This document shows positions 3,415 through 9,835 of a DNA stretch of 59,963 bases, one piece after another. Position 1 is the first letter of the stretch; the number at the start of each line of letters is the position of its first letter. The position numbers were made by a program, and so were the translations under genes. The stretch covers positions 8,374 to 68,336 of the forward strand of contig PLND01000051.1 of the NCBI GenBank assembly GCA_003141675.1. The letters are read 5' to 3'. Below the pieces are notes generated by a model. That model did not search any database. It was not told the origin of the DNA and was given only the letters and a program-made list of their open reading frames with translations. This DNA comes from Anaerolineae bacterium (GTDB lineage: Bacteria; Chloroflexota; Anaerolineae; Anaerolineales; RBG-16-64-43).

Positions 3415-3469
3415 GGACCATGGACCGTGGATGATTGACCATGGTCGATGGTCCATCGTCGATGGTCTA
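3415..3469. repeat. CCATGG/GATGGTC-type inverted/tandem intergenic repeat
   Basis: ggaccatggaccgtggatgattgaccatggtcgatggtccatcgtcgatggtc; alternating palindromic GACCATGGTC/GATGGTCCATC units between pyrB and pyrFE. Confidence 0.6.
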
Positions 3470-3496
3470 GCATCCCACAGGAAAGGGATCACTCAT

Positions 3497-4891
3497 ATGA
3501 CGAAATTCTCAAGCCTGCTGGATCAACGCGCCCATAAAGTTCAATCCCTGCTGTGTGTGGGCTTGGATCCGCATCCGGATCTGTTGGCTCAGCCGACGGC
3601 CGCAGCGGCGCTGGATTTCTGCCTGCGCATCATCCGGGAGACGTCGGATCTGGCCCTGGCGTTCAAACCCAACAGCGCGTTTTTCGAAGCGTTTGGCCCG
3701 GAGGGCACTCGCGCGCTGCAGGAAGTGATCGGCGCGTGCCGGAAACTGAGCGTGCCGGTGATCCTCGACGCCAAGCGCGGGGATATCGGCGATACGTCCA
3801 AGGCCTACGCCCGCGCGGCGTTCGAAACGCTCGGCGTCGACGCGCTGACGGTCAACCCGTATATGGGCGGCGATTCGATCGCGCCGTTTCTGGAGAAAGA
3901 AGAACGCGGCGCATTCGTGCTCTGCCGGACGTCCAACCCCGGCGCGGCCGATTTGCAGCTCCTGCGGGTGGACGGGGTGCCGCAGTATGAAAAGGTGGCG
4001 GCGCTCGCGCGCGAGTTGAACACGCGCGGCAACGTCGGGCTGGTGGTGGGTGCGACCGACCCCGCGGCGATCGCCCGCGTGCGCACGCTCGCCCCGGACC
4101 TGTGGCTACTCGTGCCGGGCGTGGGCGCGCAAGGCGGAGATCTGCGGGCCGCCGTGGATGCAGGAATGCGCGCGGATGGTCTGGGCTTGACGGTGAACGT
4201 CTCGAGGTCGCTGGCCCGTGCCGCGAGCCCGCGTGCCGAAGCCGAGAAAATAATCGCGGTCATGCGCGAGGCGATGCAGGCGACGCACCCGAAACCGTCG
4301 AGCGCTTCACCGGCGCAGCTTGAGGTGGCGGAAATCCTCAGCGCGTCGGGGTGCGTCAAGTTCGGAAATTTCACGCTCAAATCCGGGAAGCAATCGCCGA
4401 TCTACCTGGACTTGCGCCAGTTGGTGTCGAACCCGGAGATGTTGGCCCGGGCGGCGGCCGCCTACGTTCCGCTCCTGCACATGCTGACGTTCGACCGCAT
4501 CGCGGGACTCCCTTACGCCGCGCTGCCGATCGCCACCGCGATCAGTCTGCAGACGGGTTGGCCGATGATCTACCCGCGCAAGGAAGCCAAGGACTACGGG
4601 ACCAAGGCACAAATCGAGGGCGCACATGCGCCGGGCGAGCGCGTGGCGATGATCGATGATGTAGTGACTACCGGCGGCGCCAAGCTGGAGGCGCTCGAAA
4701 AACTGCACAGTGCGGGTTTGGTGGTGGAGGATCTGGTGGTGCTGGTCGACCGCGAGAGCGGCGGCGCGGAGAGCCTGCGCGAAATGGGCGTGGCGTTGCA
4801 CGCCGCGGCTCGTCTGCGCGACCTGCTCCCCATCTGGCAATCGCAGGGCAAATTGACCGCTGAGCAGGTGGGGCAGGTGATGAGCTCTTAG
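3497..4891 (+). CDS. pyrFE: Orotidine-5'-phosphate decarboxylase / orotate phosphoribosyltransferase fusion
   Basis: N-terminal OMPDC (LLCVGLDPHPDLL, ILDAKRGDIGDTSKAYA) then OPRT (GNFTLKSGKQSPIYLDLRQ, VAMIDDVVTTGGA). The ORF track starts at 3431, but the 22 upstream codons lie in the repeat; MTKFSSLL is preferred. Confidence 0.92.
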   Translation: MTKFSSLLDQRAHKVQSLLCVGLDPHPDLLAQPTAAAALDFCLRIIRETSDLALAFKPNSAFFEAFGPEGTRALQEVIGACRKLSVPVILDAKRGDIGDTSKAYARAAFETLGVDALTVNPYMGGDSIAPFLEKEERGAFVLCRTSNPGAADLQLLRVDGVPQYEKVAALARELNTRGNVGLVVGATDPAAIARVRTLAPDLWLLVPGVGAQGGDLRAAVDAGMRADGLGLTVNVSRSLARAASPRAEAEKIIAVMREAMQATHPKPSSASPAQLEVAEILSASGCVKFGNFTLKSGKQSPIYLDLRQLVSNPEMLARAAAAYVPLLHMLTFDRIAGLPYAALPIATAISLQTGWPMIYPRKEAKDYGTKAQIEGAHAPGERVAMIDDVVTTGGAKLEALEKLHSAGLVVEDLVVLVDRESGGAESLREMGVALHAAARLRDLLPIWQSQGKLTAEQVGQVMSS

Positions 4892-5061: not shown

Positions 5062-5982
5062 CTACACCGCTTTCCCAATCAGCTCGCGGATCGATTTCGC
5101 ACCATGTTTCTGTAGATATTGTTGCATCCCCTTTGCCACAGTCTCAAACACATTTGGTTCGCGGAACATGGCCGTCCCGATCCCCACGCAGGTCGCACCG
5201 GCCAAGATGAGTTCCAGCGCTTCGGCGGCGCTCGTCACACCACCCAGCCCGATGATGGGAATATTGTTTTTCTTGCAGCAGGTTGTGTAACACTTATACA
5301 CCGCGTAGACCGCTACGGGATGGATTCCGATCCCGCTCAAGCCGCCGATCCGGTTGCCAAGCGCCGGTTTTTGCGTTTCCACGTCGATCGCCATGCCGCG
5401 CAGGGTGTTGATCACGCACAACGCGTTCGCCCCGCCGCGGATCGCCGCCTGGGCGATTGCAGCGATGTCGGTAACGTTGGGCGTCAGTTTCACGATCAGC
5501 GTCTTCCCCAGCGCGACCTTTCGCACGCGCACGACGAGATCTTCGAGTACCGACTCGTCGCAGCCGAACTCGATCCCGCCCTTCTCGACGTTCGGACACG
5601 AGACGTTGAGTTCGATCGCGTGAATTTCCTCACGGGTCGAGAGAATTTCCGCGCATTGGACGTACTCGTCGATCTCCTCTCCGGCGATGCTGGCGATCAC
5701 GGGCACCTCGAGCGTTCGCAGTTTCGGAATTTCCTCCGCGACGAACACCGCGATCCCCGGGTTCTGCAAGCCGATCGCGTTTAGCATTCCCGCGCGGGTT
5801 TCCGCGATGCGCGGCTCCGGATTACCCTGACGCGGGTGCAAGGTGACGCTTTTGGTCACGGCCGCGCCCAAATAAGGCCGGCTGGAGATGATGGTTTCAT
5901 AATCCAAGCCGTAGACGCCCGACGCCGAGAGCAGGGGGGTTTTCAGCCGCAACGATCCGAGTTGGGTTTCTAATCCTTCCAT
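5062..5982 (-). CDS. pyrD: Dihydroorotate dehydrogenase B catalytic subunit
   Basis: METGLETQL-type start (MEGLETQLGSLRLKTPLLSASG), IELNVSCPNVEKGG, VINTLRGMAIDVETQKPALGNRIGGLSG, IIGLGGVTSAAEALELILAGAT; start set at 5982, ORF extended to 6096. Confidence 0.95.
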   Translation of the reverse strand: MEGLETQLGSLRLKTPLLSASGVYGLDYETIISSRPYLGAAVTKSVTLHPRQGNPEPRIAETRAGMLNAIGLQNPGIAVFVAEEIPKLRTLEVPVIASIAGEEIDEYVQCAEILSTREEIHAIELNVSCPNVEKGGIEFGCDESVLEDLVVRVRKVALGKTLIVKLTPNVTDIAAIAQAAIRGGANALCVINTLRGMAIDVETQKPALGNRIGGLSGIGIHPVAVYAVYKCYTTCCKKNNIPIIGLGGVTSAAEALELILAGATCVGIGTAMFREPNVFETVAKGMQQYLQKHGAKSIRELIGKAV

Positions 5983-8900
5983 TGGATATCCCTCGCTGGG
6001 AAGACCGGCCCTTCGCGGCAAACCCGTTTGCGATAGACCTTGCCGTCCGGGCCGATCACCCGGGTGGTGCAGGAGTAGCAGGCGCCCACTCCGCACGCCA
6101 TGCGTGTCTCCAGGGAAACCTGGCAGTCCAGGGAATTTCGCGCGGCAATTTCCGCAACCTTACGTAGCATCCCCTCTGGTCCGCAGGCGTACAGGCAGAC
6201 GCTTTCGCGCGGAACGCAACCGTCCCGGAGGCCCTGCTCAAGCATTTCGGTGACCAGGCCCTTCTCGCCGAGCGATCCGTCGTCGGTGCAGACGGTCAGA
6301 ACCCGGGCGCCGATCTCGTCGAATTCGGATTGGATCGCATCGTACAGTTCCTGATCTCCGCCGGAATTGTCGATATCCATTCCGCGGCCCGAAGCGCCGA
6401 CGGCCAGGTTGAGCATTTCCTTTCTCACCGCGCCAAGATAGATCAGCACTTCTTTGCCGTGCTCTCGCAGCCGTTCAGCCAGTGCCGCGAGCGGTGCCAC
6501 ACCGATCCCGCCCGACACGATCACGGCCGTGTGCGAAGCGCACACGGAAAATCCATTTCCGCAGGGGCCGATCGCGCGCAGGACCGCGCCCTTGCGTGCA
6601 CGGCTCAGGATGTCCGTGCCTTCGCCGACCACCCGGTAAAGAAAATCGACCCGCGCCGGATGGCGGACGATGGCTTGGCGCATTTCATCCGGCAATTCCT
6701 CGGCGTGAGCCAACGCCGCGCGATGAAAACGGGGGTACTCCGCGCGGTGAATACTGAGCGGCCGCCGTAGGGTCAGCGGGTATGCGCGCGGTTTCCCGGC
6801 ATCCGGGTCGCACAGGAGGTGAAAAAACTGACCTGGAAGAAAATCCAGCTGAGCATTGGCTGGAAGTTCCAGTTCGATCAGGAAATGCCCTTCGCAGATT
6901 CTGCGGTTTTGCACGATCCTAAGTTCGAGATCCCGGAGACGCGACGATTTTTTCAAGGGGTCGGTCGTTTCCAGCTCGGGGAAATTATCGAAGGACGCCA
7001 GTTGCCCTTTGAGATCGGCTCCCGGCGCCGGGTGCTTATGGCGCCATTCGCAAAGGCAACGTTCCAGGTCAAGATAGGAAATATCGCCCCACTCGGAAGC
7101 GGTTCCATTTTCAAGATAACTTGCAATCCGAATTTCTTTTTTGCCGAGCGTGAAGCCGACACTCCGTTTTGCGGAAGTCTTCCAGGTAACTTCTGCGGGA
7201 GCGTTTTGCGAAAAGCGGGCGGAGTAGCCGAACGCTTTGCCCCAATCGCGAAGTAGTGCGGCGGTCCGTGTTCGCCGGTGACGCAGTATTTCAGCCGACC
7301 GCAGGTTTTGACCAATGGCATCTACGTCCTCCACCGTCAGGCCGTCACGGCCAAGACGTTGGGCCGCGAGCCGGCGGGCGGCGGCCGCGTCGCTCGGTCC
7401 TCCCGCCGAAAGCGATTCCGCATCGAGTACGATCCGACGCCAATTCAGCGGAATGTCTATTCTCCCCGCCACGACGCCTTTGCCTTTGCGGACGATAAGC
7501 CGGCCGTTCCGGTATTGCGCGAAGGAGGCGACCGCCTGAAGGAGTATTTCATCCATTGAGGATTTTTGAAGAGCGGCAATTTCCTGTTTATCCAAACGTT
7601 GATAAAAGGAACGCAGGATTTTGTCGGCGGTAATTTTCTTGCCGTAGATACCGAGCAGTTCGCGCGCCGTATTGGCCGCTTTTTTATGGAGGCTTGCCTT
7701 AGGAACCTCCATTGCCGTAATTGTTTGCTTTTTATTTACCGGCACGCGCACGAGGTAACCCCCGCCGGTTCGGGAACTTTTTCCTCCCGCCACTGGCTGG
7801 TAATGGATCTGCTCCGAGGGCAATCCGGCTGCCTCCAGAAGGCCCAGGAACTCCGGAAAAAACGTGGCGCCGGAGTTTGCACAGAACAGGTGCGCATAAC
7901 TTCCTTCCTTCGCGACCCGGTGAAGTCCGTGAAGAACGACCAACATCCGCTCGCGGTACTGCTCGACGCTCCGGCCGTGCTCCGGGGCGATGACAATTTC
8001 CCGGTTGTGATCAAATTCCATCTTTAGCCAAGCGGCTTGAATGGCCGGCAGGAAAATGTCGTTTTCAAAAAACTCAAATGGCGGTTCCGTCAAAACGTAG
8101 TCGATGGAACTCTCGGGAAGTTCATAGATCAACGCATCCTCGGCGGATTTGCCCAGGATAACCACATTTGCCTGGTGTGATTCCAACTCGCCGTAACCGT
8201 AGCCGATCGTGGCGTTACGCAATATAGCATTGCTTTCTTTCTTGCCTTCGTAAACCCTCCGGAAGTTCTCGGAAAATGTATCCCAGGGATTTGACACAAC
8301 GCATTTTTGCAACCCGCGTCGCCCGCCCAGCCTTTTTCCTTTTGAAAGAGATCCGCCGATTGCGGTTCCCGGAGGGGCGAGTGGACCCGGGCAATGACAC
8401 GCGGCCAAGGCGGATGCAAAAGCCAGTTTCATCACATCGCGGACCGCGGGTTCGGTGATATTGTTGATGGAATTCAGGATGATGGATAGGGCGGCAACCG
8501 TCCGGCGGCGAAGAAAATCGGCCGGATAGTTTATGTTCGCCGCCAAATCTGCCGGCAGGGGCAGGCTCGCCGGATGCCAGAAGGGAATGTCCGCATCCGC
8601 GTTCTCCGCTTCCACGCGCCGGTCGCCTGCATCCGGTTTTTTCCGAAGCCGGCCCGGCGAGCAGGAGCAGGAATAATCCAACCGGACGAGTTTCCCGTTT
8701 TCCCGGTGAAGGAAATTCACGACGCCTTTCTTTCCGCATTTGGGGCAGGCGGTCGCGAATAGTTCGGAGATCACATCCTGGCACTGTTCGCGGAGATCCT
8801 GGAAAGCCCATTCCAGGCGCGGCAGGCTGGCGGGAGTGAAAACGACTTGTGTAAAAAAGGACGCCAGGGGATTTGGGTCCGTCGTTACCGCCCGGCGGCC

Positions 8901-9107
8901 GAGGCGCAAGGCTTCGATCGCCGTAGTTCCATTGCCGCCGAAGGGATCGAGGACGACGTCGCCCTCCTTGGTATACGCACGGATGAGTTCCGCGACGACC
9001 GCGGGTGCTAAGTTGCCGCCCCGGGGATGCATGGCGTGGATTGGACCGGCGCCGGCGTTCGGTGCGGTTGGAATTCCCGTATCGATATGCCGGACGTTTT
9101 GTCTCAT
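5970..9107 (-). CDS. Fusion: DNA methyltransferase-like region + dihydroorotate dehydrogenase electron-transfer subunit (PyrK)
   Basis: Single 1045-aa frame. N-term VVLDPFGGNGTTAIEALRLGRRAVTTDPNPLA and DYVLTEPPFEFF; C-term GQFFHLLCDP, RRPLSIH, CGNGFS, SGGIGVAPLAALAERL, CGVGACYSCTTRV...C (2Fe-2S). Confidence 0.88.
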   Translation of the reverse strand: MRQNVRHIDTGIPTAPNAGAGPIHAMHPRGGNLAPAVVAELIRAYTKEGDVVLDPFGGNGTTAIEALRLGRRAVTTDPNPLASFFTQVVFTPASLPRLEWAFQDLREQCQDVISELFATACPKCGKKGVVNFLHRENGKLVRLDYSCSCSPGRLRKKPDAGDRRVEAENADADIPFWHPASLPLPADLAANINYPADFLRRRTVAALSIILNSINNITEPAVRDVMKLAFASALAACHCPGPLAPPGTAIGGSLSKGKRLGGRRGLQKCVVSNPWDTFSENFRRVYEGKKESNAILRNATIGYGYGELESHQANVVILGKSAEDALIYELPESSIDYVLTEPPFEFFENDIFLPAIQAAWLKMEFDHNREIVIAPEHGRSVEQYRERMLVVLHGLHRVAKEGSYAHLFCANSGATFFPEFLGLLEAAGLPSEQIHYQPVAGGKSSRTGGGYLVRVPVNKKQTITAMEVPKASLHKKAANTARELLGIYGKKITADKILRSFYQRLDKQEIAALQKSSMDEILLQAVASFAQYRNGRLIVRKGKGVVAGRIDIPLNWRRIVLDAESLSAGGPSDAAAARRLAAQRLGRDGLTVEDVDAIGQNLRSAEILRHRRTRTAALLRDWGKAFGYSARFSQNAPAEVTWKTSAKRSVGFTLGKKEIRIASYLENGTASEWGDISYLDLERCLCEWRHKHPAPGADLKGQLASFDNFPELETTDPLKKSSRLRDLELRIVQNRRICEGHFLIELELPANAQLDFLPGQFFHLLCDPDAGKPRAYPLTLRRPLSIHRAEYPRFHRAALAHAEELPDEMRQAIVRHPARVDFLYRVVGEGTDILSRARKGAVLRAIGPCGNGFSVCASHTAVIVSGGIGVAPLAALAERLREHGKEVLIYLGAVRKEMLNLAVGASGRGMDIDNSGGDQELYDAIQSEFDEIGARVLTVCTDDGSLGEKGLVTEMLEQGLRDGCVPRESVCLYACGPEGMLRKVAEIAARNSLDCQVSLETRMACGVGACYSCTTRVIGPDGKVYRKRVCREGPVFPARDIQWKD

Positions 9108-9835
9108 AGCGTATGCCTTCCCGCTTCCTGGGCGCGATGCGCTATCTTCATCCTGCAGAAAAACGAAAGGAAGACGGTATTAAGTGAATCGGTAATCCAT
9201 AGGATTGTTGTTTTGTATTGTGAGGGGGACATTCCGAGTTCGGACATGTCAGAGGTCAAAAATCCCAAATCGTATTTCCCGCACCGGCAAACCCAAACGG
9301 AATTTTATCTAAAATGATTATATCAGTTTAATCCACGGGGCCCCCGCGGGCTTGGCGGAGAACTTTTTTACAAACCTGCATGAATTTCTCCTTTGCCCAA
9401 CACTGGATTGGGTCGGCAGGGGGCGAGGAAATCCATCATGTTAGCCCTGACGATAATGTTCGGATACCTTTCATCGGTCGGTTTTCTCAGAAGTCGCATC
9501 GAAAAAAGAACGGATCTCATCCATGATCGTCCGCTATCACCAGCCTTCGGATAAATAGCGAGACGATCGGATAGAGTCTATTGCCAATCCTTTTACAGCA
9601 TCCGGTCTGTTCAAAACGCGAAGAACGTTAGCGGATACTGAGGATTGCTTTGTAAGGTCGAGCGCCGGAGTGAAAGAATTACAGCGATCCCACCCGCAGG
9701 ATTTTATAAATGCATCCAGCCGGCTGATGGTGACCACAAACTGGAAAGATCCACCCAGTGGATGCTTTCTCCCCGTATCCTCCATGGACTTGGAGTGGTT
9801 AAAAAACCTTTAAAAGTGGCACAAACCTTGCCCCA

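Follow-up and report, generated by a model that had tools for sequence, protein, structure and literature searches.

The window analyzed here, a 59,963-nucleotide stretch of DNA from an Anaerolineae bacterium of the order Anaerolineales, carries a gene in which a region derived from a DNA methylase is joined in one frame to PyrK; the fusion is genuine and is conserved in a small group of Anaerolineales. The explanation considered probable, taken as a whole, is that the product is a working PyrK that is partnered with PyrD and carries a retained, non-catalytic methylase-fold domain. According to this explanation, the gene would yield one long protein, whose C-terminal 320 residues would serve as the electron-transfer subunit of an NAD-dependent class 1B DHODH, pairing with the PyrD encoded directly downstream in an overlapping frame, and whose N-terminal 690 residues would trace back to a restriction-modification-type N6/N4 DNA methylase. 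The fusion event would predate the split of the window's genus from a sister genus, or would have spread early between them. Methyl-transfer chemistry would since have been lost in the sister genus, and probably in the window species too, and the domain would be under selection as a folded module anchoring PyrK, and through it probably the DHODH complex, to a further partner, possibly DNA, SAM, a nucleotide or a second copy of the domain. Against this explanation stand the small number of carriers, three genomes in all, a PyrK that scores below the NCBIfam cut-offs, and the intact-looking motif I of the window copy. The features discussed are collected in Table 1.

Table 1. Positions in the window of the fusion gene, its parts and pyrD (residues numbered along the 1045-aa product).
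Feature	Position	Strand	Remarks
GGGAAGG, Shine-Dalgarno-like, 5' of first ATG	9116..9122	minus	duplex energy -6.5
Fusion gene, 1045 aa	5970..9107	minus	methylase-derived region, middle region, linker, PyrK
Methylase-derived domain, about residues 30-470	7698..9020	minus	PF01555, PADLOC MTase_II, homology to standalone methylases, predicted fold
Motif I, DPFGGNGTT, residues 54-62	8922..8948	minus	degraded in G003 and G001
Zinc-ribbon-like segment, residues 121-149	8661..8747	minus	C121, C124 and C147 invariant in 13 aligned proteins
Motif IV position, TEPPF, residues 340-344	8076..8090	minus	DPPH in standalone methylases, SVPPS in G003, SAPSL in G001
Middle region, residues 471-690	7038..7697	minus	helical part, then beta-rich part
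Linker, residues 691-726	6930..7037	minus	variable, mostly low predicted confidence
In-frame TTG, codon 718, proposed internal start	6954..6956	minus	would yield 328 aa
PyrK module, residues 727-1045	5973..6929	minus	FAD domain with RRPLS, NAD domain, 2Fe-2S
PyrK insertion, about residues 787-812	6672..6749	minus	
PyrK insertion, about residues 903-926	6330..6401	minus	
2Fe-2S cysteines C1005, C1010, C1013, C1030	6018..6095	minus	invariant in the three fusions
pyrD, class 1B DHODH	5062..5982	minus	Shine-Dalgarno energy -7.0 at start

An intact fusion gene and its distribution

The initial annotation had described a single uninterrupted frame of 1045 codons, and this is confirmed: the frame running from 9107 to 5970 contains no stops, and the longest open run in mononucleotide shuffles of the same DNA was 335 codons. 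The 13-nt overlap between the fusion stop and the pyrD ATG (ATGGAAGGATTAG), also reported at that stage, is real and recurs with identical layout in the two relatives introduced below. The overlapping gene encodes a class 1B DHODH (365 bits against NCBIfam PRK07259, cut-off 269; NF005574, E 2e-109). The immediate neighbors of the fusion gene are pyrD and one divergent gene, and the local cluster also holds pyrC- and pyrB-like genes, as judged from their translations. At window positions 3431-4891 lies a pyrF-pyrE fusion (orotidine decarboxylase and orotate phosphoribosyltransferase), a fusion type already known.

When the same architecture was sought in 60 relatives, the full-length fusion was found in two MAGs that share the window's family and belong to a different genus, G003 (record JAFGCU010000015.1, an Anaerolineales MAG) and G001, neither of which encodes the two parts as separate genes. 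Their products of 1024 and 1001 aa are stop-free and 47-48% identical to that of the window over the full length, and G001 keeps synteny with pyrC-pyrB-pyrFE. A frameshift or chimeric assembly is ruled out because the uninterrupted fusion recurs in two MAGs of another genus. Among the three fusions, identity reaches 66-81% in PyrK. Within the methylase part, columns 49-160 show 46-58% and the remainder 40-46% and 30-37%; the middle region stands at 42-50%, and the linker, roughly 33 columns long, at 6-30%. Third codon positions are the most changed in the methylase, middle and PyrK segments, which indicates coding constraint on all three; the linker does not consistently follow this pattern. 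It has to be considered whether the N-terminal half is a functionless, decaying passenger captured by chance, as the degraded catalytic motifs of two of the species and an N-terminal identity below that of PyrK might suggest. However, about 690 codons have persisted with neither stop nor frameshift across three species with about 50% divergence, and the methylase and middle regions bear the codon-position pattern of purifying selection, making a passenger highly improbable.

The distribution of the fusion is narrow. About 400 genomes of the order yielded it in only three (the window genome, G003 and G001), 396 genomes sampled from the class yielded it only in the window's own genome, and about 790 further Anaerolineae genomes in all provided no match to the architecture outside the three already known. 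Scanning 84,980 species for the pattern brought up solely the known relative (JAFGCU010000015.1), a first scan of genome contigs using the single fusion protein as query gave no match, and among plasmids no record covered at least 80% of the query, the matches listed being separate methylases or separate PyrKs. The two remaining genomes in the family lack the fusion. DHODH classes vary inside this one family: in one of those two, G004 (contig C47, locus L090), which belongs to sister genus g3, a quinone-type DHODH directly adjoins pyrFE, as opposed to the class 1B enzyme of the window, and a PyrK-type Fe-S gene was looked for in that genome and not found.

The PyrK module and its translation

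A methylase-like N-terminus joined to a PyrK C-terminus had been proposed from the translation, and domain searches bear this out (PF01555 and DHODB_Fe-S_bind, respectively). The PyrK module starts near residue 727, past the variable linker; within it, DHODB_Fe-S_bind (PF10418) matches residues 1000-1041 (E 2e-14) and NAD_binding_1 is also matched. NCBIfam PyrK models match at E 1.6e-40, the best of them scoring 139 bits against a curated cut-off of 219, although such equivalog cut-offs are naming thresholds and not functional features. Because it scores under these cut-offs, the PyrK of the fusion is, by sequence, a divergent member. Comparison with PyrK from Lactococcus lactis (1EP1-1EP3) gave a profile match to 1ep3 at E 8e-29, and the predicted PyrK fold superposes on 5ksw_B with a target-normalized TM of 0.80. 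The fusion shares with the L. lactis system the FAD and NAD domains, the four-cysteine 2Fe-2S motif and an adjacent class 1B pyrD, but differs from standalone PyrKs in its approximately 690 extra N-terminal residues and in two insertions. The three fusions share the positions of both insertions, neither of which occurs in the standalone PyrKs used for comparison, and it is possible that they contact the N-terminal half.

PyrK-like modules within larger redox polypeptides have precedents in the PyrK-like/glutamate synthase fusions (NCBIfam PRK12778 and PRK12779), but there the partner is another redox enzyme, whereas here it is a methylase-derived domain. The initial annotation knew of no described methylase-PyrK fusion, and that statement holds for the open-licence literature searched, in which no report of a PyrK or DHODH electron-transfer protein fused to a methylase was found; a survey of metabolic gene fusions likewise contains no methylase-PyrK case (PMC4921024).

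No other PyrK or DHODH that could cover the function was found in the window genome. Two candidates were examined and rejected: a second PF10418 protein is instead a sulfhydrogenase-gamma-like subunit, and a second DHODH-like gene adjoins pyruvate-ferredoxin oxidoreductase. Since the fusion is the only PyrK of the genome, it is probably the long protein on which pyrimidine synthesis relies. Put more strictly, because neither another PyrK nor a covering DHODH was found, the role of PyrK, provided that the class 1B enzyme is functional, would have to fall to the long protein or to a piece cut from it, and we infer that it is the full-length protein that does so.

The long protein could nevertheless be a minor or precursor product, with PyrK made separately through internal initiation or through proteolysis in the linker. 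For the former, the TTG at 6956 had been put forward as a start releasing a normal PyrK. This codon exists and would indeed give 328 aa, but it occurs in the window only, is not conserved in G003 or G001, and lacks a ribosome-binding site: its Shine-Dalgarno energy of -3.3 is about that of the background (median duplex energy -2.8, lowest 10% at -6.3), compared with -6.5 for the first ATG and -7.0 for the pyrD start. With neither conservation nor a Shine-Dalgarno signal above background, the proposal of release from this TTG is not supported. G001 has a TTG of its own four codons beyond the junction, and the linker, being variable and predicted to be disordered, is compatible with cleavage. 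In G003, however, no in-frame ATG, GTG or TTG is found from 39 codons before to 23 codons after the junction, leaving that species with no usable start nearby. There is thus no conserved internal start for a separate PyrK as far as the sequences tell, and separate production is unlikely.

A methylase fold with decayed catalytic motifs

The front half of the protein descends, on the evidence of homology, from a restriction-modification-type N6/N4 DNA methylase. Pfam N6_N4_Mtase (PF01555) matches residues 36-77 (E 1.1e-12; 48.8 bits, cut-off 26.7), PADLOC MTase_II matches residues 41-405 (E 7.6e-18), and PADLOC type II methylase models match both the fusion and standalone methylases of 563 aa. 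The methylase similarity suspected at the outset is therefore present. The structure predicted for residues 1-726 includes a confident methylase core with blocks near 90 pLDDT; a Foldseek search with the predicted N-terminal structure returned methyltransferases as its best PDB matches, but weakly (best E 1.1e-3). The middle region matches no family, and nothing convincing corresponding to it was found in the approximately 750-aa proteins described below.

The SAM-binding motif I (FxGxG) is kept in the window and destroyed in both relatives, where DPFGGNGTT is replaced by DPLSECGMG (G003) and DPFSICGAT (G001). Motif IV of active enzymes reads (D/N/S)PP(Y/F/W), a pattern seen in none of the three fusions: the position is TEPPF in the window, SVPPS in G003 and SAPSL in G001, and DPPH in the standalone methylases. 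In G003 and G001 both motifs have been lost although residues 40-150 or so remain 46-58% identical, and since these two species lack them, methylation cannot be why the fusion has been conserved. The N-terminal domain is probably a repurposed, non-methylating methylase fold, judging by this pattern of decay.

A bifunctional protein in the window, in which an active N6/N4 DNA methylase joined to PyrK couples DNA modification to pyrimidine supply, has to be weighed against this. The window fusion retains motif I, an acidic TDPNP and the zinc-ribbon cysteines, its motif IV reads TEPPF, and its methylase core is predicted to be folded. Motif IV nevertheless has E where D, N or S is expected, motifs I and IV are gone in both relatives, and no restriction endonuclease or companion gene was found among the locus neighbors adjoining the fusion, unlike the standalone relatives with their companion of about 370 aa. 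An active methylase is accordingly quite unlikely, and the functioning DNA-modifying enzyme of the initial annotation is not supported, given the destroyed motifs of the relatives and the non-canonical motif IV of the window; with its intact-looking motif I and TDPNP, the window copy may still bind SAM or even methylate.

A retained fold with a non-catalytic role thus appears the better account of the domain, and possible roles include those of a tether, DNA or ligand binding, regulation and oligomerization. A bolder version, which is unlikely, has the methylase domain built permanently into the pyrimidine pathway as a component that does not methylate and would sense SAM, DNA or nucleotides or place the DHODH complex on DNA; if it is true, the supply of nucleotide precursors would be controlled at the chromosome. 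Evolution has here kept a DNA-modification fold connected to a redox enzyme of core metabolism, a combination undescribed in the open literature searched. With its fold retained and its catalytic motifs lost, the protein is well suited to exploring the capabilities of an inactive methylase domain, and it raises the question of whether pyrimidine synthesis is regulated or localized through a methylase-fold domain. Annotating such proteins as just a DNA methyltransferase or just PyrK is misleading.

Candidate sources of the methylase domain

Phylogenetically, the three fusions group as a single clade on the catalytic-methylase side of the tree, and 12 sequences of the order-wide 750-aa family split from them at 100/100. 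Because the fusions attach to neither side decisively (93/90) in a tree whose root is not fixed, more than one methylase donor is compatible with it. The nearest standalone relatives of the methylase region, N6/N4 methylases of 563 aa from Anaerolineae (e.g., L086, 6991-8679), are about 25% identical to the fusion (E 2.6e-44) and have the same order of motif I, zinc ribbon and motif IV, but they carry DPFCGSGV and DPPH where the motifs of the fusion are damaged. They also form a two-gene, restriction-modification-like unit with a companion of about 370 aa, which the fusion lacks. At each of the five loci examined (L086, L087, L088, L089 and L113), this companion (L086, 5874-6977; SDFNAIRKLYDDDRFVELLHHPNGIFWLKLRSISR...) comes directly after the methylase gene; the one companion tested had no convincing Pfam or PADLOC match, and it is possibly an undescribed restriction enzyme.

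The protein of about 750 aa that occurs throughout the order is, like the fusion, methylase-derived, with the zinc ribbon mostly retained and motifs I and IV lost, and hhalign relates it to fusion residues 28-494 at 99.1%. It is, however, separate from PyrK, and the window genome has its own copy (G000:C43:29337-31682). Descent of the fusion from this family was rejected, given that separate copy and the 100/100 split in the tree. The family is nearly universal, with members in 67 of 81 good Anaerolineales genomes at E<=1e-20 (loci L045-L051 and L102-L105, with L106 and L108 both denoting the window genome's copy). It matches no convincing Pfam family, and its members combine degenerate motifs I and IV with an extra C-terminal region, LPGGRAGL..KL.RDPRL..GW.FLKFRHVRRL.
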